Shown one piece after another: positions 2,297 through 21,225 of a stretch of DNA of 21,225 bases. The stretch spans positions 1 through 21,225 of the IMG/VR virus record IMGVR_UViG_3300044635_002211; one strand, written 5' to 3'. The notes below the pieces were generated by a model. It was not told the origin of the DNA and made no database searches. It saw nothing but the letters and a program-made list of their open reading frames with translations. This stretch comes from a virus. Positions within the stretch are counted from its first letter, which is position 1; every line of letters starts with the position of its first letter. The position numbers and the translations under genes are program-made.

Positions 2297-4156
2297 TCAG
2301 GCTCTTTCGTCCGCGGGGTTTACATTGGCGGTACGCTCAAAAGCGGCAGCGGCGCGAGCCTCAGTGCGCTCTAAATCGGAATCGCGGTGGAAAACCACCG
2401 TCCCCCCAAGAGTCCCCAACAGACTAGCGATCGACAGGCTATTACGCAGGGCCTCCAAGACCGCCGGCAGTGCATCCACGATGCCTTCTTGCAGGGCGGG
2501 CACGGTTTTGCCGCTCGCTACGTCCACGATCGTTGCCGACTCAAGGCTTTCTTCGGGATTCTCGCAAAGAGCTTTGGCGTTGGCACTCACTGCCTTCATC
2601 GCTTCTTCGCATTCAATGGCATTGTAGCCGGCGTTGGTCAGGAGTCGGCGCAGCGGCTCTTCCAGCGACGGAATCAGGATCTGCTCAAGGATGCCCATGG
2701 GGTCCTCAGCGGCTCGCAGCGCCGCGCAGAGGTAGAGGAAGGTCCAACCGCCGCCTGGCAGCGCGCCCGTCTTCAAGGCACCGCGGACGGCACAGACGGC
2801 GTCTTCGGCGCGATCGCGTTTCTCCTTGAGTTCACCATTGCTGGCGCCGAGGCAACGCAACCGCGCGATGCCGCCAGTCAGCCGCGCGATGCGTTCCTGA
2901 ATCAGCATGCGGTCGAGTTCGCTGGCACCGCTCTGGGCCGCCTGCTGGCGCAAGGCATCCATGCGTTCGATCAGCCGCGCCTCAGTGCCCTCGTCTTCCG
3001 GAACGCCGATCAGCGTCGAGCGGAAGCGGTACATTTCAAGATGCCGGATGCCGCGACATCGAACGCGCGTGCCACGTTCGTCGCTTTCGTCGATCATCGG
3101 CGCACCGAAGTCCTCCAGCTGGCACTTGTCGACAGGGCTATTGAGAGGGTCAAAGATGCGAGCGCCTGTGACCGCCGCCATATCCTCCAGAAAACCGCGT
3201 TGACCATTGAGCTGTGGCGACATGGGCACCATCAACGGAACGATCTTGATAGTGTTGGGCTCGTTGAAGTTGATGGCAAGGTGACCTAGAACGCTTTCGC
3301 TGAATCCCGCCGCCACCACCACCACGTTGTGATTGTAGCCCAGCGAAACGTACTTTTCGCTGATCATCTGTAGGGCCGGGAAAAGGGTCTGAAACTCTGT
3401 GATGCGGCCATCGAAGAGCACGAAGACAGGCTCATCGAGCACGACTCGCTGGTTGGCGACGTCGTTGAGGAAGCGCGAGTAGAACCGCGCCATCGAGTCT
3501 TCGTACCCCATCTGAATCGGGTAGCCGCTGATCTTCTCGACGTCGTAGCCGCTGGGTCCAGAGGATTCAACGATGGTTACGTTGCCGTCATCGCCCGTGA
3601 TCTCAAATGCTCGCGATACTGCGTCTGCCAGATCTGCGTCGCCATTGGCCGATGTGGCAGCGATCTGCTTTAGCAAGCGCTGTCCGTCTTCAGACGCTGA
3701 ATCGACGGGAATGGCCAGATCACGAATCATCGGCTCCAACGAGTCGTTGAAAACGCGCTGGAGGCTACGGACCACGCGCTGCGGCGAGACCTTGGGGTTG
3801 TTGCGCGTGAAGTTGAGGGTGTGCCGGACAATCGCCTCAGACAGCACCGTCGCCGTCGTTGTACCGTCACCGGCCTCGGAGGCCGTGCGAATGCTGGCGT
3901 CGCGCGCCGTCTCCATGATGGCATGAGCCACGGGATCGGCAAAGCCGAGGCTGCGGTAGACCGTGACGCCGTCCTTGGTGACGAACGGCGGCAGGTCTTC
4001 CTGTCGCTCGATGAGAACCTGTTGGCCGCCGGGGCCAAGTGTGGCGCCGACGATCTCGGAGACGCGAGACATCGTCTCAAGGATCGTCGACTCCAGTCGC
4101 TTGCCCTTCGGCGTAACGTTTTTGGCAACAGACTTGACTTTCTGGTAGCTGGTCAT
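2297..4156 (-). CDS. GroEL-like phage chaperonin (Cpn60)
   Basis: This is a 619-residue group I-type chaperonin that would form ATP-driven folding rings in the host cytoplasm, probably for phage structural proteins. ATP-site signatures are intact: GATLGPGG (37-44), TKDGVTV with Asp62 (equivalent of GroEL Asp52), GDGTTTATVL with Asp97 (equivalent of Asp87), the KEKRDRAEDAV segment with Asp452 (equivalent of Asp398) and LPGGG (466-470). The C-terminal equatorial segment GIVDALPAVLEALRNSLS also fits. It is about 70 residues longer than E. coli GroEL, with extra length around residues 340-420, and it lacks the Gly-Gly-Met tail. The start ATG (4154-4156) has AGGAGA about nine bases upstream. It is second in the leftward unit. 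Phage chaperonins such as that of phage EL are known to work without a co-chaperonin; a candidate GroES-like gene at 8052 is described separately. Confidence 0.96.
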   Translation of the reverse strand: MTSYQKVKSVAKNVTPKGKRLESTILETMSRVSEIVGATLGPGGQQVLIERQEDLPPFVTKDGVTVYRSLGFADPVAHAIMETARDASIRTASEAGDGTTTATVLSEAIVRHTLNFTRNNPKVSPQRVVRSLQRVFNDSLEPMIRDLAIPVDSASEDGQRLLKQIAATSANGDADLADAVSRAFEITGDDGNVTIVESSGPSGYDVEKISGYPIQMGYEDSMARFYSRFLNDVANQRVVLDEPVFVLFDGRITEFQTLFPALQMISEKYVSLGYNHNVVVVAAGFSESVLGHLAINFNEPNTIKIVPLMVPMSPQLNGQRGFLEDMAAVTGARIFDPLNSPVDKCQLEDFGAPMIDESDERGTRVRCRGIRHLEMYRFRSTLIGVPEDEGTEARLIERMDALRQQAAQSGASELDRMLIQERIARLTGGIARLRCLGASNGELKEKRDRAEDAVCAVRGALKTGALPGGGWTFLYLCAALRAAEDPMGILEQILIPSLEEPLRRLLTNAGYNAIECEEAMKAVSANAKALCENPEESLESATIVDVASGKTVPALQEGIVDALPAVLEALRNSLSIASLLGTLGGTVVFHRDSDLERTEARAAAAFERTANVNPADERA

Positions 4157-4212
4157 GGGCTTAGTTCTCCTGCGACTTCTCGCGACTCATAGCATAGCCC
4201 ATTCCCAACACC

Positions 4213-5460: not shown

Positions 5461-6956
5461 TTATCCTCAGAACCTACTCTCCTTGTCGTACTCGCATTGA
5501 AGGATTGCCGCCTGCCGGCTGCAGGGAGCGACTGCAAGTTGAATCCGCTTTGTCTTATAAAGACAAGAAAGCCGTCTTCGCGCTCAAGCGTTTCAAGAAC
5601 AGTGCCTGGCTGCGACAAAACATCATTGAGTCCAGAGGCGAGGAAGCGTACCTGGAAGAGCTGCGGAAGCTGAAGGAGCAACAGAACGGCAGCTGTTTGC
5701 TTTCTGGAGATGAAACCTACAGCGGCCTCGGCCCTCGTCTGCAGTCTATCCTCGGCTGTCAGCTGATAAATGAAGTCGAATACCCTGATCGCGAGTTGAT
5801 TCCCTGGGATAATCAACCTAAAAACGCCCTTCGTGACTACCAACGAGAAGCCGTTGAGAAGCTACTGGCAGCCCGTCATGGCGCAGTCGAGTTGGCTACG
5901 GGTCTTGGCAAGTCGACCATCATCCTCTACCTTGTGAAGGCTCTGGGTCTGCCGACGGTCGTCATGGCGCCATCGCGATCCATCGCCAACCAGCTGTATG
6001 CTGACTTCCGGTATGCTCTCGGCGGCAAGAGAGTTGGCTTCTTTGGTGATGGCAAGAAGGACTGCAGCAAGCTGGTGACCATCGCCATCGCCGCCAGTCT
6101 CGTCCGAGTCGATCCCGGCAGCCAGCACTGGGAAGCCTTCCAGAAGAAGCAGGTGTTCATTGCCGATGAAAGTCACCTGACGCCAGCAGCCACCCTGCAG
6201 CAGGTTTGCTTCGGCTTGCTGGCCAACGCCCCCTATCGCCTGTTCTTCTCAGCCACGCAGATGCGCAACGACGGCCTCGACGTGGTGCTGGAGGGCATCA
6301 CGGGGCCCGTGACGATGCGCATGTCGACGAGGGAGGGCATTGACGGTGGTTTTCTGGCCAAGCCCCACTTCCGGGTCGTGCCGGTTGAAAGCGAAGATGA
6401 CTATAGGTCTCAGGACATCATGCGCCTTCATCGCCATCACTTTGTGAACAATCGTCGGCTGGCGAAGGCGGCCGCGACTCTAGCCAATATGACCGTCGAT
6501 CGCCTAAAGACGCCTTGCCTCATCCTCATCGACGAACTGCCTCAGTTCAGTCACATCCTGCCACATCTGCGCCACAAAGTGGCGCTGGCGCATGCCGCCG
6601 ACGGCAAGAAGGCAAAAGAAGACATTCCCGCCGGCTACCAGTCTTCTGATGTCGATGCGCTTGTCAAAGATTTCAACGCCGGCAACCTGCCAATCCTCGT
6701 TGGTACTTCATGTGTATCTACTGGCACGGATTTTACTAAAGTCGGGCATGTTATTTATATGGTAGGCGGTGGATCGGAGATTGCCCTCAGACAAGCTATT
6801 GGTCGTGGTACACGCAAGCCGGAAGGCAAGTCGTCTTTCATCTTTACCGATTTTGATGTCGTAGATGTCCCGGAACTACACCGCCAGGCCGATGCTCGCA
6901 GGATGGTCTATGCCGATATCTGGGAACCAGCTGTCGAGGTTCATGTCAATGTCTAA
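5457..6956 (+). CDS. Superfamily 2 DNA helicase (UvsW-like)
   Basis: This is a 499-residue SF2 helicase likely to act in branch migration, fork reversal or recombination-dependent replication, as T4 UvsW does. Motifs in order: LRDYQREAV (Q/0 motif), ATGLGKST (Walker A, Lys152), ADESH (Walker B, DESH at 237-240), FSAT near 265, VSTGTD (motif V) and QAIGRGTRK (motif VI, Gln446 to Arg453). A roughly 120-residue N-terminal region before the Q motif corresponds in position to the small N-terminal domain of UvsW. The ATG overlaps the stop of the P-loop gene as ATGA, so translation is probably coupled. It lies close to SbcC/SbcD, in keeping with a recombination module. Assignment to SF2 is firm; the UvsW subfamily is inferred from context and architecture. 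Confidence 0.92.
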   Translation: MIILRTYSPCRTRIEGLPPAGCRERLQVESALSYKDKKAVFALKRFKNSAWLRQNIIESRGEEAYLEELRKLKEQQNGSCLLSGDETYSGLGPRLQSILGCQLINEVEYPDRELIPWDNQPKNALRDYQREAVEKLLAARHGAVELATGLGKSTIILYLVKALGLPTVVMAPSRSIANQLYADFRYALGGKRVGFFGDGKKDCSKLVTIAIAASLVRVDPGSQHWEAFQKKQVFIADESHLTPAATLQQVCFGLLANAPYRLFFSATQMRNDGLDVVLEGITGPVTMRMSTREGIDGGFLAKPHFRVVPVESEDDYRSQDIMRLHRHHFVNNRRLAKAAATLANMTVDRLKTPCLILIDELPQFSHILPHLRHKVALAHAADGKKAKEDIPAGYQSSDVDALVKDFNAGNLPILVGTSCVSTGTDFTKVGHVIYMVGGGSEIALRQAIGRGTRKPEGKSSFIFTDFDVVDVPELHRQADARRMVYADIWEPAVEVHVNV

Positions 6957-8034
6957 AAAGAATCCCGCCAAGACTCGACCCGAAGAAGACGGCTTTGTGC
7001 AAGTATTTGCGGCGAATGTCGCCAATGCCTTGACGAAGTACGAAAAAATGCCGGTGCGCGATCCAGATGCTTTGCTGCAGCGTCAGACGCAACAAATGAA
7101 TCTGTTGGTAGATTTAGAGGACCGCTGTCGAAAGGCTCTGATTCAGGATGCTCGTGGACTTGGGGTGTACGAACGCTTTGCTGCTTTCATTCGCGAAGAA
7201 AGGCGCAACGCTTTGGCCGCACAACCATACTTTCGTGAACCCGAAGGCATCTTCATAAAAGAAATCTCGCCGGCCATTCGAGACAATGCCGTGCGATCAT
7301 TATTGAGATATCACTTCAACTACGCTTTTGTTGCCTTTGCGCGTAGAATCATCGAAAGAGATTGGGTAGATGGCCTTTCGACGCCTTTTTGGAAACTCAG
7401 CGACGCCTTGATTGCTGCGCGTAGGGAGTTGGTCGAAACCAATCTGCCTTTGGCTATTAGCCGCGCCCGCATGTTCTATGGCAAGACGCCGAAGAGCCAC
7501 ATGGACTACCTCGACTTCGTGCAGTTGGCGGTGGAGGGGCTGTTGGCTGCCATCGACAAGTTCCGGCTCCCATTCCGCCCCGTCTTCCGAAGCGTAGCCA
7601 TTGGCCGCATGACGGCTCTTTTTATTGAACGCTACAGCGAAACGACTCTTCGGTTTTACCCCCTAGATCGCCGACGCATTTATCGTGCCAACAAGGCGCT
7701 TAGGCGCACGCCTCCGGATCAAGTTGATTATGGCGTTTTGGCAGAGTCCGTAAATCAAGGCCTTGAGGAACGCTACCGCACGTCGCCTGAGGATTTGGCG
7801 TGTCTGATGTCGGCGGTTTCCATGCTGTCTGTCGATTGGCAGGAACCGGGAGGTGGCGTCGGTGGATCCGAAGAGGGCCGCACCTTTGGTGATGGCTTAG
7901 CGGCGCCTGAAGAAAACCGTCCCGATCGCAAGGCAGAAGAAAAAGAAAATGGCTTGAGACTGCAGGAGGCCTTGAAATCACTTGACGTTTTGGAGTCGAA
8001 AGTCGTAAAGATGGCAATGGGCCTAGATTTTTGA
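6943..8034 (+). CDS. sigma70-family-like factor lacking region 4.2
   Basis: This is a 363-residue protein with a recognisable sigma region 2 at about residues 160-245: RRELVETNLPLAISRARMF matches the LVEaNLrLV...A segment, DYLDFVQLAVEGLLAAIDKF matches the DLIQEGniGLmkAvdKF core-binding helix, and a basic segment RYSETTLRFYPLDRRRIYR follows. Residues 255-300 may be a region 3 equivalent. The C-terminus LQEALKSLDVLESKVVKMAMG resembles the start of region 4, but the protein stops at GLDF, just before the helix-turn-helix that reads the -35 box. There is no room downstream for it. Two ATGs (6943, 6949) share a GAGG; either overlaps the helicase end. It probably directs host RNA polymerase to phage promoters, perhaps like T4 gp55. 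An anti-host role cannot be excluded. Confidence 0.78.
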   Translation: MSMSKKNPAKTRPEEDGFVQVFAANVANALTKYEKMPVRDPDALLQRQTQQMNLLVDLEDRCRKALIQDARGLGVYERFAAFIREERRNALAAQPYFREPEGIFIKEISPAIRDNAVRSLLRYHFNYAFVAFARRIIERDWVDGLSTPFWKLSDALIAARRELVETNLPLAISRARMFYGKTPKSHMDYLDFVQLAVEGLLAAIDKFRLPFRPVFRSVAIGRMTALFIERYSETTLRFYPLDRRRIYRANKALRRTPPDQVDYGVLAESVNQGLEERYRTSPEDLACLMSAVSMLSVDWQEPGGGVGGSEEGRTFGDGLAAPEENRPDRKAEEKENGLRLQEALKSLDVLESKVVKMAMGLDF

Positions 8035-16298: not shown

Positions 16299-16507
16299 GC
16301 CTTGGCGCGCTTAGTCGCCAAGACCTCCTGCTTGACGGCCATGTGGTAGCAGGCGGCTAATGTCGTCGAGAACTCGGAGACCGGCCCACGGCTTCCCTTT
16401 TCTCTGAAGGAAATGGTACCGTTGGGGCTGATGGTGACCACCAGCGGTCGCCCATTGATGATGACGTTGGTTTCACGGATAACGGGTTTTGTGAGTTGGG
16501 TTGCCAT
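16292..16507 (-). CDS. small leftward hypothetical protein
   Basis: This is a 71-residue protein, the only leftward gene within the head module. It has the look of a true protein. A basic, Thr-rich N-terminus is followed by a beta-hairpin pattern (NVIINGRPLVVTISPNGTISF), a polar turn (REKGSRGPVSEFS) and a C-terminal helix (TLAACYHMAVKQEVLATKRA). The ATG (16505-16507) has GCGAGG five bases upstream on the minus strand, and the stop abuts that of the MuF-like gene. No family is recognised. The layout (two strands, then a helix carrying an A-V-K-Q-E motif) is seen in small regulatory or DNA-associated phage proteins, but this is only a resemblance. A gene against the flow of late transcription may be a later insertion or a regulator of head genes. 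Confidence 0.65.
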   Translation of the reverse strand: MATQLTKPVIRETNVIINGRPLVVTISPNGTISFREKGSRGPVSEFSTTLAACYHMAVKQEVLATKRAKAS

Positions 16508-16515
16508 GACCTCGC

Positions 16516-16544
16516 ATGCTACAGCTACCCCGAGTGGCCGTCAA
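16516..16544 (-). promoter_or_regulatory. possible promoter of the small leftward gene
   Basis: On the minus strand, TTGACG (16539-16544), a 17-base spacer and TAGCAT (16516-16521) resemble a sigma70 promoter. The -10 lies only eight bases before the ATG, so the transcript would be nearly leaderless and the GAGG ribosome site would not be used. This weakens the case. Confidence 0.25.
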
Positions 16545-16559
16545 GAGGAATCTTTGCGG

Positions 16560-16712
16560 TATGCGATTTTTTTGGGAGTTGATCATAATCATACTACCGG
16601 GGAAATCCGCGATCTCCTCTGCCACCACTGCAACGCCGCCATCGGCCATCTGATGGAATCGCCTGAGTTGATGCGTTAGGCAGCAGAATACATCGAAAGG
16701 CATCAAAAATGA
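16560..16712 (+). pseudogene. remnant of an endonuclease VII-type gene
   Basis: The frame contains GVDHNHTTGEIRDLLCHHCN, the core of the T4 endonuclease VII (recombination endonuclease VII) family, with the HNH-like DHNH and the second zinc knuckle CHHC. It is followed by the family's typical helix AAIGHLMESPELMR. The first zinc knuckle (another CxxC before the core) is missing, and so is any sensible N-terminus. An in-frame TAG (16677-16679) interrupts the last helix, which would otherwise continue AAEYIERHQK to a TGA at 16710-16712 that overlaps the ATG of the next gene. TAG serves as a normal stop elsewhere here (for example at 10475 and 15551), so recoding is unlikely. The remnant probably derives from a once complete mobile or resolvase gene. 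A frame from 16413 exists, but its N-terminal part is antisense to the leftward gene. Confidence 0.7.
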
Positions 16713-19700
16713 CTGCGTTGTCTGAAAAAAGCAGCAGGTTGGTGGAAGGCTCTACGGGTCTGGTCATCGATGGTGTTTTCGCCAGCGAAGTCTGGGATTC
16801 CTCCGGTGAGGTGCTTGACATTGCGGGATGCGACATTTCCGAAATGGAAGAGGGGCGCGGTCTCGCCAACTACGAACATCGTAATGACGAGTCGACGGGC
16901 GCCACAAGTCAAGACATCGTAGGTCGCATCATTTATGCGCGCAAGATTTTCAATGAATCTGATTGTGAGGACGAGCGCCAGAAGATGTTCTGGAAGAAGG
17001 TCAAGGTCCCCTTCATCTACGGCATGGTTCGGCTTTATGACGGCGCTGGTCACCTGTCGGCTCAGGGCCTTGCGGCTCAGGTGCGGGACGCGGTGAAGAA
17101 CAAGGAGCAGATCCTTGTTCGGTTCTCGATCGACGGCAGCACATTGGAGCGCGACGGTAATCATCTCAAGCGCACGATCGCCCGCCGCGTTGCCCTGACC
17201 ATCAAGCCCTGCAACAAGACCTGTGACAGCGACCTCGTCGTTGACCCCAACGCCCCCGAGGGCTACGAGAAGAAGCCGAAGAAGCCGCTGGTGGAGTTGG
17301 TGAAGAAGGAACACCCGCTCTACGGCCGCCTCGGCTCCTCAGGCGAGATTGAGCAGGATGCGCCGGAGCAGCAGGCGCTCTGGAAGGCCCTGAAGGCCTC
17401 CAAGGAAGCAAAGCCGGCGGCCAAGAAGTCGGTGCTGCCCAAGGCCCCCAAGCCCCCGGCTCAGTGGGAATCGGAGGACGGCGTCGTCATCCCCCGCGCC
17501 GGCACTCCGGATCGCAGGCGCTGGGATACGGCCTATGAGAAGGCACTGAAGCAGCACTTTGGCGGCGGCAAGCCCATCCAGATCAATGTCGATGAGGCGC
17601 AGAGTCTGAATCCAGTCCGTAACTACGATCGTTACGCCATGTACGTTCAGATGGCGCAGCATGACAGGCTGCCGCCGGCCGTCGTCCGCCGCTCGGGCTC
17701 GGGCTGGGAGATCGTTGACGGCAATCACCGGCACTTTGCGGCCAAGAAGGCGGGCCTGAAGACCATGGACGCCATCGACATCACGGAATCGAAGGCGCGC
17801 AAGAGCGAACAGGAGACGGGCATGAAGAAGGCGATGGATGCGGGCATGGCCACTGGCTCGCCCTCTAGCCTTGTGGGCGGCGCGGCGCTGCAGCGCGAGG
17901 AGTTGGCGAAGAAGCTGGTGAAGCTGGCTCAGGACTACCATGAGTCCAAGGGCTCGATGCGCGACTTCCTCAAGTCTCAGCTGCCGGAAGTCAGCGACCA
18001 CTACCTCGATCACTTCACTGACCTCGCCACCGACATCCGCGCCCGCCTGCGCAAGACTGAGCCGCTGGCGAAGGCGCGCAAGAAGGCGGAAGGTGCTGGC
18101 GCGGAGGCTGCGGCTCCGGTTTCGGAGCCCGCGCCGGCTCCCAAGGCAGCTGCCGCCAAGGCGCCGAGGGCGCCCAAGAAGCCGGCCTTCACCGTTCGCG
18201 GCGAAGGAGTCAAGGCTTCGGGGCTTTCGGGTCCACAGATGGTGTTCAACGAGCACACGGGTCAGCTGAAGACCAAGAATGGCCACTTCAGTCTCTATAA
18301 CCCGGATGCGGATGGCGATTCTGGCGAGAAGTTCCGTCAGGTGTGGAACTCGCCTGAGGTTCGCCGCCAACACGACTACGCTGTCGGCAACTGGGTCAAG
18401 CTGAATCAGGCTCTCAAGCAGGGTCGTTTGCCTGAGGCAGTGCTGGCGACTTCGGTGGCCTTCTCGCAGCTGAGCCCCAACACGCCCGTTCCCGTTCACG
18501 AAATGATGTATTCGATTGACTCAAACACAATCTTGTACCCAGTGGGACAAGAACCCAAGAAGATCAAGGATTTCCGCAAAGGAGATTTGATCTTGGGCGT
18601 AGATTCTTTGGGAAATGTGATTGAAACTGAAGTTTTGGCCCTGCATGATCATGGTGATCTGATGGGCTATGAGATCACGTTTGAAAATGGTTACTCGATC
18701 ACGACTTCCAAGGATCACAAGTTCTTGACTCCTGCTGGCATGATGTCCATTGTGGACGTTGTGCGTTTCGGTGTGGAGGTCGTTTGTGGCAAGGAAGCAG
18801 AAGATCGGTGGCTGGCCAGCGAGATGCGGTCAGGTGTTTCCGACGGAGGTTCAGTTCAAGGCCCATCGAGTCGGTTGTGCGCAGTGCAAGGCGATGCGCC
18901 AGCAAGCACGCGCCGTCTCTGCTCGCGATTGGCATCGAAAAAATCCGGAAGCCGCGGCCCTGCTGCGGGAGAAGGCGATGGCCGCGAGTGCGGAGTGGCG
19001 ACGATTGAATCCGGATCAAGTGGCAGCGGGTCCCAGACGATGGCGCCAGGAGAATCCGGAGGCATGGGCGCAGCATCAAGCCTCGTGCTCTCTGGCGATG
19101 CAGGAGTGGCGACGGGATCATCCGGAGATGACTTCGAGGTTTCTTCGGCTGCTTGCTGCCGGTGCTGCTCGGTATCGGGCGGAGCACCCCGAACACTTCA
19201 TGGAGACAGCGAGGGCGCTGGGGGCGTGGCCGGACAAGCGAGGGAACCGCTCTCTGATGGAGGAGTGGCTTCGGTCTTCTGGTACGCTGACATGGCCGGA
19301 CGCTCAGATCCGTTGTCTTATGGACGAGCGCAAACAGGTGGACTTAGTGTCTCCAGATCACAAGATCTGGGTGGAAGTGGACGGAGTGCACCACTTCTTC
19401 CCGATCACGGCGACACCGGAGTGGCAGGCTCGTTTGGCCAAGACGCAGCTGCGAGACGCGATGTTGAAGGACGAGGCTCTGCGACGCGGCAATGTGACGT
19501 TGATTCGACTTTCCATGGAGTGCTTCAAGACCTGCAAGAGCAAGGAGATGAAGGCCCATTGGTTGGATCTGCTGAATCAGATACTCCAGTCGCCCTCTCC
19601 GGGGGTCTGGTGCTTCGGCGCGTTGTACAAGTCCGTACCGTGGGCATCAGCCGGATGTATGATCTTGAAGTCGCCCACCCTAAGCATAACTTCCTGCTCC

Positions 19701-21225
19701 CCTGCGGGATCGTGACGTCAAACTCCTACCTCCTCGATACCTTCAAGGAAAAGGGGATGGACATCCGCGACGCTCGTTTTGGATCTCCTGAAGTGAAACA
19801 GGATTGGATGTCGCGCGACCAACCCCATGCTTGGCCGCAGTCTTCGCGCGACTACTTCACCCAACAGATCGGCGATCTCGTCACCAATCAGCGTGACTCT
19901 ACCAAAACGGGGCGTCTGGCGGGTGAGCGCACTTCATTCATGCTTGCACACAATAAGTTCGCCAACATGGCACGATACGCTGATGCTCACCAGCACATGA
20001 AGGATCTGGTCTCACGTCACGGCGTTGATGGTCGTTCGGCCGTCGCTGAGTTGATGGGCAACAAGGGCAAAGCGGAGTTGTGGGAAGCGACTCGCAAGCG
20101 GGCGCTCGACAAAGGCAAGCCAGATCCGGGTCCGTTTCAGGGCCTGCACATTCCCGGTCTGGCCCCGAAGACCGCTCGTTTTGCCTACGCCATGCTTGGT
20201 GCCGGCAACTCGTTCGTGCCCGACACTCACTTCAGCCGCCATCTTTTTGGTCTCGACAAGGACAAGGACAAGCAGTCCATTCACCACATCCGAGACGACA
20301 TCTTGTGGAATCACAAGAACAGCGATCTGCTCTCGGCGATGGATCGCTGGTATTACCGCAATCATCCGGCCGTAAAGTTGATGCTTGAGCATCCTGAGTT
20401 TGGTTCTTACTTCAAGGACAATCCAGAGCAGGCAGTGTTCCCTGCCTTCTGGGGTCATTGGCTGTCGATCGCGCCCCATGAGCGGCTGATGGAACACAAG
20501 CGAGCGAACGTCGCTCATAATCAGGCGGCCAGCCATCGTCCGTTGTTCGATGAGGTCCAGCGCCTTTTGCAGGATCCGAAGGAGTCGCAGCAAACAGTTC
20601 CGGCCCGCGCAACGCCGCTGCCGGAATCGCCGGCGCCTCAGTCGAATCTGCGTTTTGGCTTCAAGAAGTCCGAGGAGTCGGGTCCGCTTATCGACCCGCG
20701 GCTGGCAGCGGCCCTTGTTCGTCACTGGATCAACCACCACGGCGAGGAAGAGGCTTCGTTCCGCTACTACTCGCAGTTGCTGCCGCTGCTGATGCACGGC
20801 TCGGAGAACGAGGACCCCATCCTCAAGGCCGAGAAGCTGTCAGTCGAAGTCCGCAACGCCGCGGCGCGTCTGAAGAAGGCCAACGGAAACCCTACTGAAG
20901 CCGCGCCGACGAGGGGCGAAGACCCCGCTGACTCGTCGCGGCATTCGCTGGGTTTGGCGCTGGAAAAGGATCTGGTTGAGCGCAACACCAAGCACATTGC
21001 TCCCGTCAAGGTCTCGGCCGCCGACGGCAGCGATCGCATCAACAATACGCCAGAGCAGAAGGCGTTGATCGACGGCGTGGACCTGAGCCGGAACCTGAAG
21101 GCCAAGCCTGTTCACGCCACTGAGTCGCTGACATCGCCAACACAGATGTGGATTCCGCATCCCGATGACAAGCGGTTGGTGCTTGTGAAGCATGGCCACG
21201 AGTGGTCGTATCCGCACATGGGGGC
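16709..21225 (+). CDS. giant fusion protein: protease-like, ParB-like, HhH-GPD-like; interrupted by an intein; partial
   Basis: A single open frame of 1505 codons runs off the right edge. Residues 1-195 resemble phage prohead maturation proteases: His57 in NYEHRND and Ser140 in VRFSIDGS are candidate catalytic residues, and the position after portal and MuF fits. Residues about 270-360 carry a ParB/sulfiredoxin-like segment (NPVRNYDRYAMYVQMA, then IVDGNHRHFAAKKAG, about 337-341). Ala/Lys/Pro-rich linkers separate the parts. Residues 602-1005 are an intein. After removal of the intein, SQLSPNTPVPVHEMMY joins SYLLDTF; further on, IPGLAPKTARFAYAMLG and PDTHFSRHLFG (Asp1172) resemble the hairpin and catalytic-Asp segment of HhH-GPD DNA glycosylases. 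The start ATG has AAGG upstream. Codon use is strongly GC3-rich apart from the intein. The product is probably a virion or prohead protein; domain functions are inferred. Confidence 0.8.
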   Translation, partial: MTALSEKSSRLVEGSTGLVIDGVFASEVWDSSGEVLDIAGCDISEMEEGRGLANYEHRNDESTGATSQDIVGRIIYARKIFNESDCEDERQKMFWKKVKVPFIYGMVRLYDGAGHLSAQGLAAQVRDAVKNKEQILVRFSIDGSTLERDGNHLKRTIARRVALTIKPCNKTCDSDLVVDPNAPEGYEKKPKKPLVELVKKEHPLYGRLGSSGEIEQDAPEQQALWKALKASKEAKPAAKKSVLPKAPKPPAQWESEDGVVIPRAGTPDRRRWDTAYEKALKQHFGGGKPIQINVDEAQSLNPVRNYDRYAMYVQMAQHDRLPPAVVRRSGSGWEIVDGNHRHFAAKKAGLKTMDAIDITESKARKSEQETGMKKAMDAGMATGSPSSLVGGAALQREELAKKLVKLAQDYHESKGSMRDFLKSQLPEVSDHYLDHFTDLATDIRARLRKTEPLAKARKKAEGAGAEAAAPVSEPAPAPKAAAAKAPRAPKKPAFTVRGEGVKASGLSGPQMVFNEHTGQLKTKNGHFSLYNPDADGDSGEKFRQVWNSPEVRRQHDYAVGNWVKLNQALKQGRLPEAVLATSVAFSQLSPNTPVPVHEMMYSIDSNTILYPVGQEPKKIKDFRKGDLILGVDSLGNVIETEVLALHDHGDLMGYEITFENGYSITTSKDHKFLTPAGMMSIVDVVRFGVEVVCGKEAEDRWLASEMRSGVSDGGSVQGPSSRLCAVQGDAPASTRRLCSRLASKKSGSRGPAAGEGDGRECGVATIESGSSGSGSQTMAPGESGGMGAASSLVLSGDAGVATGSSGDDFEVSSAACCRCCSVSGGAPRTLHGDSEGAGGVAGQAREPLSDGGVASVFWYADMAGRSDPLSYGRAQTGGLSVSRSQDLGGSGRSAPLLPDHGDTGVAGSFGQDAAARRDVEGRGSATRQCDVDSTFHGVLQDLQEQGDEGPLVGSAESDTPVALSGGLVLRRVVQVRTVGISRMYDLEVAHPKHNFLLPCGIVTSNSYLLDTFKEKGMDIRDARFGSPEVKQDWMSRDQPHAWPQSSRDYFTQQIGDLVTNQRDSTKTGRLAGERTSFMLAHNKFANMARYADAHQHMKDLVSRHGVDGRSAVAELMGNKGKAELWEATRKRALDKGKPDPGPFQGLHIPGLAPKTARFAYAMLGAGNSFVPDTHFSRHLFGLDKDKDKQSIHHIRDDILWNHKNSDLLSAMDRWYYRNHPAVKLMLEHPEFGSYFKDNPEQAVFPAFWGHWLSIAPHERLMEHKRANVAHNQAASHRPLFDEVQRLLQDPKESQQTVPARATPLPESPAPQSNLRFGFKKSEESGPLIDPRLAAALVRHWINHHGEEEASFRYYSQLLPLLMHGSENEDPILKAEKLSVEVRNAAARLKKANGNPTEAAPTRGEDPADSSRHSLGLALEKDLVERNTKHIAPVKVSAADGSDRINNTPEQKALIDGVDLSRNLKAKPVHATESLTSPTQMWIPHPDDKRLVLVKHGHEWSYPHMG
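18775..18779 (+). promoter_or_regulatory. internal Shine-Dalgarno for the nested endonuclease
   Basis: GGAGG lies six bases before a GTG at 18786 in the +1 frame. This is close to the ideal spacing, and it sits at the junction between the intein N-terminal splicing domain and its linker. It decides the start of the nested gene and argues for separate translation rather than fusion to the intein. Confidence 0.6.
18786..19715 (+). CDS. Vsr/EDxHD-like homing endonuclease nested out of frame in the intein
   Basis: This is a 309-residue protein encoded in the +1 frame relative to the intein. The GTG at 18786 has GGAGG at 18775-18779; its TGA (19713-19715) falls eight bases before the C-terminal splice point. 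Residues 14-34 form a small zinc finger (Cys14, His27, Cys31, Cys34). Residues 49-137 hold five repeats around [WY]-x3-[NH]-P-[ED] (W49, W71, W86, W108, Y130), probably DNA-contacting helices. Residues 155-245 match a Vsr-like nuclease: SLMEEWL (Glu159/160), KQVDLVSP (Asp186), IWVEVDGVHHF (Glu197, Asp199, His202/203) and LRDAMLKDEAL (Asp224). This agrees with the EDxHD homing endonucleases of phage introns and inteins. It would cut intein-less alleles and spread the intein. The last 25 residues, which overlap Hint block F/G, look non-native. Fusion by frameshift is an alternative. Confidence 0.8.
   Translation: MARKQKIGGWPARCGQVFPTEVQFKAHRVGCAQCKAMRQQARAVSARDWHRKNPEAAALLREKAMAASAEWRRLNPDQVAAGPRRWRQENPEAWAQHQASCSLAMQEWRRDHPEMTSRFLRLLAAGAARYRAEHPEHFMETARALGAWPDKRGNRSLMEEWLRSSGTLTWPDAQIRCLMDERKQVDLVSPDHKIWVEVDGVHHFFPITATPEWQARLAKTQLRDAMLKDEALRRGNVTLIRLSMECFKTCKSKEMKAHWLDLLNQILQSPSPGVWCFGALYKSVPWASAGCMILKSPTLSITSCSPAGS

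Follow-up and report, generated by a model that had tools for sequence, protein, structure and literature searches.

We analyzed the 21,225-nucleotide stretch that makes up positions 1 to 21,225 of the IMG/VR virus record IMGVR_UViG_3300044635_002211 (hereafter, the window), in which a gene for a prohead-protease-type structural protein is interrupted by an intein that itself encloses, in another reading frame, a predicted homing endonuclease gene (Table 1). The host open reading frame (ORF) comprises 1,505 codons without a stop and is still open at the window end. Its product matched the PHROG head maturation protease (E = 3.3e-5), and its relative in Myxococcus phage Mx1 is annotated as "putative prohead protease." The intein has the features of Hint-type inteins, namely, S1 as the block A nucleophile, TTSKDH with the block B histidine, and SN/S with the terminal asparagine and the +1 nucleophile (here and below, slashes mark splice junctions or insertion sites), and matched Pfam Intein_splicing with E = 8e-6, under the gathering score. 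The original prediction placed both Hint halves and the exteins in one frame, open for 404 codons, and this was borne out, the intein being stop-free and continuous with both exteins. Its boundaries are fixed by an empty allele, because a contig with 84-87% identical flanking DNA (3300017766_005733, locus L004) carries the exact empty site HEMMY/SYLLDTF; a 48%-identical protein (L005) and Mx1 are also intein-free at the same place. The locus had no match in Rfam and therefore no sign of an RNA intron. L005 additionally contains, at positions 5841-5896, a related Hint-N at another site of its prohead-protease gene (HWLGIS/CLDQDTIL), cut off by the contig end.

Table 1. Features of the intein locus in the window and nested inteins by host gene
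Feature	Position	Strand	Remarks
Host ORF, prohead-protease-type structural protein	16709..21223	+	ATG start; no stop in either extein or in the intein; continues past the window end
Intein, S1 ... T-S-N/S+1	18512..19723	+	Exactly 404 codons; contiguous (cis-splicing) frame
Hint N-terminal half, blocks A and B (S1, T-S-K-D-H)	18512..18790	+	pLDDT ~90 at residues 1-90; conserved across alignment A8
GGAGG Shine-Dalgarno-like site	18775..18779	+	6 nt upstream of GTG 18786
Nested homing endonuclease gene (predicted)	18786..19715	+	309 codons, +1 frame, wholly inside the intein
Intein-frame linker	18824..19483	+	Predicted disordered; residues little conserved; stop-free
Nuclease core motif KQVDxVSPDHKIWxEVDGxxHF...RDxML	19332..19466	+	Endonuclease frame, alignment A7
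Hint C-terminal half	19607..19723	+	A4/A10 profiles, AF2; endonuclease C-terminus overlaps in the other frame
Nested inteins, prohead-protease-type gene			One site: window, L019, L055
Nested inteins, sigma-factor-like gene			One site: L012, L025
Nested inteins, DnaE			L009, L010, L017, L041, L042, L043, L054, L056-L062, L064, L066, L086

The endonuclease gene begins at an offset of 274 from the intein start (1 modulo 3), that is, in the +1 frame, and its coordinates, its frame, and its own GGAGG, GTG, and TGA were confirmed as originally described. The TGA arises from the GTG-ACG of the ...G-I-V-T-S-N end of the intein, 8 nt before the intein terminus. In the usual descriptions, an intein and its endonuclease form a single in-frame polypeptide, or the intein is split and the endonuclease is free, and the original prediction allowed that compensating indels or assembly errors at both edges had displaced a normal endonuclease of the usual, in-frame kind. 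This explanation is refuted and retains practically no probability: a second contig (IMG/VR contig 3300037520_002447, locus L001) carries the same locus with a single mismatch over 7,440 bp and without indels, and the register is identical in 21 further nested inteins from other contigs. Both this near-identical contig and the empty-site relative contain another full-length intein in DnaE, 34-35% identical, with the endonuclease again in the +1 frame. Loci L001 and L009 (IMGVR 3300037520_002447) thus belong to one phage with two nested inteins, in the prohead-protease gene and in DnaE.

The family was gathered by profile scans of IMG/VR with the Hint-C and endonuclease alignments, which yielded 22 distinct inteins in which the nested endonuclease is intact, the window and 21 more, in three phage genes (Table 1). 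In conventional inteins, the endonuclease is in frame with the splicing domain; here, it is +1 in 22/22, across loci with a GC content of 0.34-0.63 and endonuclease identities down to ~25%. Pfam DNA_pol3_alpha and finger domains were found in those DnaE hosts that were tested. The sigma-factor-like label of L012 and L025 comes from similarity to the window gene at 6865-8034, which matched Sigma70_r2 (E = 0.0035) and has the empty version (IERYSETTLRFYP) of the L012/L025 intein site. Contig scans of bacterial and archaeal genomes yielded no relative that passed the search criterion; annotated phages yielded no endonuclease relative, only remote T4-like Hint-N matches that are fractured genes with unrelated nucleases. 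One candidate, L016, was rejected as a member, having only helical repeats in common with the family and a different nuclease ORF. The DnaE inteins of L010 (positions 1498-1500), L042, and L043 apparently start with threonine (e.g., YGFNK/TMDQ...), an unusual first residue. In L055, L060, and L070, an apparent second intein C-terminus lies shortly upstream in the same gene, indicative of tandem inteins (e.g., ...VCVTGN/TPVPMQEIMF in L055).

The proposed dual coding over ~930 bases is borne out by the 22 distinct cases and by the pattern of codon choice. In the window, synonymous permutation that kept the endonuclease protein led to an expectation of 8.2 intein-frame stops, and none of the 20,000 permutations was stop-free; the third frame contains 10 stops. 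Stop avoidance in homologs, set as a check on the original prediction, was found throughout the first 21 members: their 5,561 endonuclease-only codons contain 332 stops in the third frame and none in either the endonuclease or the intein frame, against 254 intein-frame stops expected by within-gene synonymous permutation (8-18 per member, with zero never reached in 2,000 permutations for any of the 21). Chance openness of the intein frame, caused by GC-rich DNA or by stop-avoiding endonuclease codon usage, would fit the GC-rich window and its Gly/Ser-rich linker; it is refuted by these permutations, by members at a GC content of 0.34-0.41 that are just as open, and by free-standing and split relatives that are full of stops in the corresponding frame, leaving a negligible probability.

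In the +1 register, an intein-frame stop is an endonuclease codon NNT followed by a codon starting with AA, AG, or GA, and is therefore removable by an endonuclease-silent T-to-C change. Over the 22 members, the T:C ratio before such codons is 0:403, compared to 1103:621 elsewhere (Fisher P = 5e-151). This absence of T from 403 positions at which either T or C would suit the endonuclease equally well is a very clear overlapping-gene signal, and indels or assembly errors could not have produced it. The depletion is significant in each member alone (P = 1.4e-3 to 8e-16) and in eight well-separated lineages pooled (P = 6e-50). By comparison, five fractured or free-standing relatives, outside a contiguous intein, show no depletion (157:83 vs 316:127, P = 0.12) and have 19-64 stops each in the corresponding frame. 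Purifying selection maintains the open intein frame.

The original prediction held that this frame is maintained as a Gly/Ser/Ala linker. The frame is indeed actively held stop-free; the residue make-up, however, is close to that of synonymous shuffles, as seen in the window for both hydropathy and disorder-promoting residues, so the Gly/Ser-rich composition is largely a by-product of the frame. Of 10 pairs, 6 have an intein-frame identity equal to the synonymous null, and 4 exceed it modestly (z = 2.3-4.4), an excess that could be due to residual nucleotide identity. There is no clear selection on the linker residues, that is, no convincing constraint beyond staying stop-free. Close pairs were too similar for dN/dS, with 3 substitutions in all.

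A GTG is present at the identical aligned place in 7/7 close members, despite differing intein residues there, and is missing from the endonuclease-less L024. GGAGG at the identical spacing of 6 nt also occurs in L010 and L019, and at 9 nt in L017; Shine-Dalgarno-like sites precede the endonuclease start in many members, with ATG behind AGGAG or GGAG in other lineages. Judging from these signals, the endonuclease is probably translated independently, from its own GTG behind the GGAGG. Programmed ribosomal frameshifting from Hint-N, which would produce a host-HintN-endonuclease fusion with no internal initiation, would be compatible with the overlap of the frames at the Hint-N end and with the invariable +1 shift; it is rendered unlikely by the fixed-position GTG, preceded in several close members by GGAGG or GGAG, by its loss together with the endonuclease in L024, and by the ATG starts with their own sites elsewhere. 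In L017, the nested ORF (3102-4163) does not stop before the intein ends, as nested ORFs usually do, but continues for 49 nt into the C-extein.

AlphaFold2 (AF2) modeling of the intein revealed a Hint domain with a predicted local distance difference test (pLDDT) score of about 90 at residues 1-90 and 371-400, flanking a loop of ~220 residues (105-324) with a pLDDT of about 30, that is, disordered. The best PDB match of the model was the NpuDnaE intein (4kl5, E = 4.5e-7). Thus, the splicing domain is modeled as a Hint of the DnaE type that contains a long disordered loop, and it would be expected to splice. Alternatively, the insertion might never be spliced out, and the mature protein might keep it as a disordered loop. 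This has been proposed for the ShiLan domain, and out-of-frame endonuclease insertions that do not splice are known from phage methylases (PMC11855218). We consider such retention very improbable here, considering that the Hint halves are conserved to the block B histidine and the terminal N/S in members 35-45% identical, that they model as a DnaE-type intein, and that most members reside in a replicative polymerase gene.

The endonuclease consists of an N-terminal Cys/His (zinc-finger-like) module, a helical repeat region, and a C-terminal Vsr-like (EDxHD-type) nuclease domain, as delineated from an AF2 model of moderate confidence (pLDDT 75.7) and alignment A7. VIA-align comparisons of this model gave Z = 10.5 with Vsr 1cw0 (root mean square deviation [rmsd] 8.7, 135 aligned), Z = 9.4 with Vsr 1vsr (rmsd 3.6, 123 aligned), and Z = 8.0 with the I-Bth0305I catalytic domain 3r3p (rmsd 2.9, 92 aligned); a HMMER search of PDB sequences produced no match. 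The protein therefore models as a Vsr/PD-(D/E)xK nuclease, similar to Vsr and I-Bth0305I, and would presumably cleave DNA. K183, Q184, V185, D186, E197, D199, G200, H203, and F204 are invariant in alignment A7, and the core motif is still recognizable in nested relatives at 25-35% overall identity. As alignment columns rather than active-site positions, E159, D186, and H203 are invariant in the 7 close members, and D224 in all but one. The middle of the overlap is read as a predicted folded protein in the endonuclease frame and as a disordered loop in the intein frame. At its end, the endonuclease C-terminus (P-G-V-W-C-x-G-x-L-Y...) overlies the beginning of Hint-C (L-V-L-R-R-V-V...). Here, the coding appears to be truly dual, with a folded part in each frame, because a similar P-G-V-x-C-x-G-x-x-Y tail ends the endonuclease of the fractured L065, where Hint-C is located further downstream.

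The anatomy and conservation of these elements and the selection for an open intein frame are direct observations, and we consider it highly probable that they represent phage inteins with an out-of-frame, separately translated homing endonuclease, capable of splicing and homing. Translation from the host start would yield a host-intein precursor, in which the Hint halves, linked by the disordered wrong-frame reading of the endonuclease gene, would fold and splice the host protein. Initiation at the internal GTG 18786 would yield the Vsr-like (EDxHD-type) endonuclease as a separate protein of 309 residues. Its targets would be alleles of the L004 type, without the intein; it would cut these, and repair would copy the whole element in. 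Decay of the endonuclease by deletion would then leave a mini-intein; remnants of the nested ORF are found in several mini-inteins. Several points weigh against this interpretation. Independent translation, splicing, cleavage, and homing are all inferred from sequences and models. Before the conserved GTG, the Shine-Dalgarno site is weak or missing in L012 and L025, the two members in the sigma gene, and endonuclease starts are unclear in some deep members. The nuclease assignment depends on an AF2 model from 7 sequences and remote fold similarity, with a best Foldseek match of E = 0.068 and a Pfam DUF559 match of only E = 0.04. Finally, the members share ancestry, so that the pooled P value overstates their independence, which the eight-lineage and per-member tests address in part.

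Fractured genes, reportedly described by Dassa and colleagues in 2009, carry an intein in two halves, separated by a free-standing endonuclease. The 2009 study appears in the reference lists of PMC6801210 and PMC10448857. Like the nested inteins, fractured genes are phage genes in which Hint halves flank a separately translated, slightly overlapping endonuclease of the Vsr-like/EDxHD family. In fractured genes, however, the Hint-N ORF stops, many stops lie between the halves, and trans-splicing is required, whereas the nested inteins have one unbroken frame without a stop between the halves, so that cis-splicing is possible, and their endonuclease is in +1 rather than in +2 as in the fractured L065 and L067. 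With conventional LAGLIDADG/HNH inteins, they share the Hint fold, the position of the endonuclease between the Hint halves, the occurrence of both empty and occupied alleles, and mini-intein decay, but the endonuclease is a second, overlapping gene outside the intein polypeptide. The endonuclease resembles EDxHD/Vsr-like homing endonucleases (I-Bth0305I) in the predicted C-terminal fold and, apparently, in the residue order E, D, H, D, and differs from I-Bth0305I in its N-terminal zinc-finger/helical-repeat region, its nested location, and the lack of HMMER-detectable PDB sequence similarity.

The closest published precedent is the ShiLan-type out-of-frame HNH insertions in phage methylases (Arsenault, Gosselin, Gogarten 2025, PMC11855218). 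These also consist of a complete phage endonuclease with its own GTG, out of frame within an open host frame, with zinc-finger parts and a disordered host-frame reading. They encode an HNH nuclease without an intein or intron splicing domain, occur only in methylase genes plus Pacc40, and were described as lying in the third frame, with no ribosome-binding site reported. Our family, unlike these, has a Hint intein around a Vsr-like nuclease in the +1 frame and occupies three other genes. The original prediction knew of no described system of this form. Hidden out-of-frame endonucleases as such have thus been published; no intein with an out-of-frame endonuclease was found in the open literature, although a subscription paper could describe the family. 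As far as searched, phage inteins predicted to splice in cis, with an overlapping +1 Vsr-like endonuclease, are an undescribed arrangement.

Several relatives have lost or rearranged parts of the element. The mini-inteins L024, L080, and L084, which have no endonuclease, retain +1-frame remnants of the nested ORF, whereas the mini-intein L078 contains no long remnant ORF. L070 has an open intein with a shortened endonuclease ORF. In the fractured DnaE genes L065 and L067, a stop closes the Hint-N ORF, the endonuclease comes next in +2, and Hint-C occupies an ORF of its own; for L076, only the portion with Hint-N and the endonuclease was seen. The endonuclease-decayed mini-inteins and the fractured DnaE inteins complete a presumed homing series. 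In the endonuclease tree, the root of which is uncertain, L065, L067, and L076 fall inside the nested set, as the sister of L058+L060 (86/87) within a 98/98 clade. Given the uncertain root, we only tentatively suggest that nested out-of-frame endonucleases could be the missing link between contiguous inteins and fractured genes. If the linker acquired a stop or a shift of frame, a nested intein would become a natural split intein and the endonuclease would be unharmed, because the latter would already be translated independently.

Elsewhere, the window encodes a chaperonin (2297-4156, minus strand; Cpn60_TCP1, E = 3e-42) and, adjoining the portal/head genes, a small ORF (16413-16679) that matched recombination endonuclease VII (E = 6e-11).

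Gene callers that assign one gene per locus miss such endonucleases, and the family is therefore probably under-counted. The nested inteins evidently tolerate a long, little-conserved loop, which is of practical interest for intein engineering. If the proposed intermediate step is correct, the family offers a concrete, testable route for the origin of natural split inteins. More generally, it appears to represent a third intein-endonuclease arrangement, in which the endonuclease dose would be uncoupled from splicing, as originally suggested, and the element could adjust the two independently.
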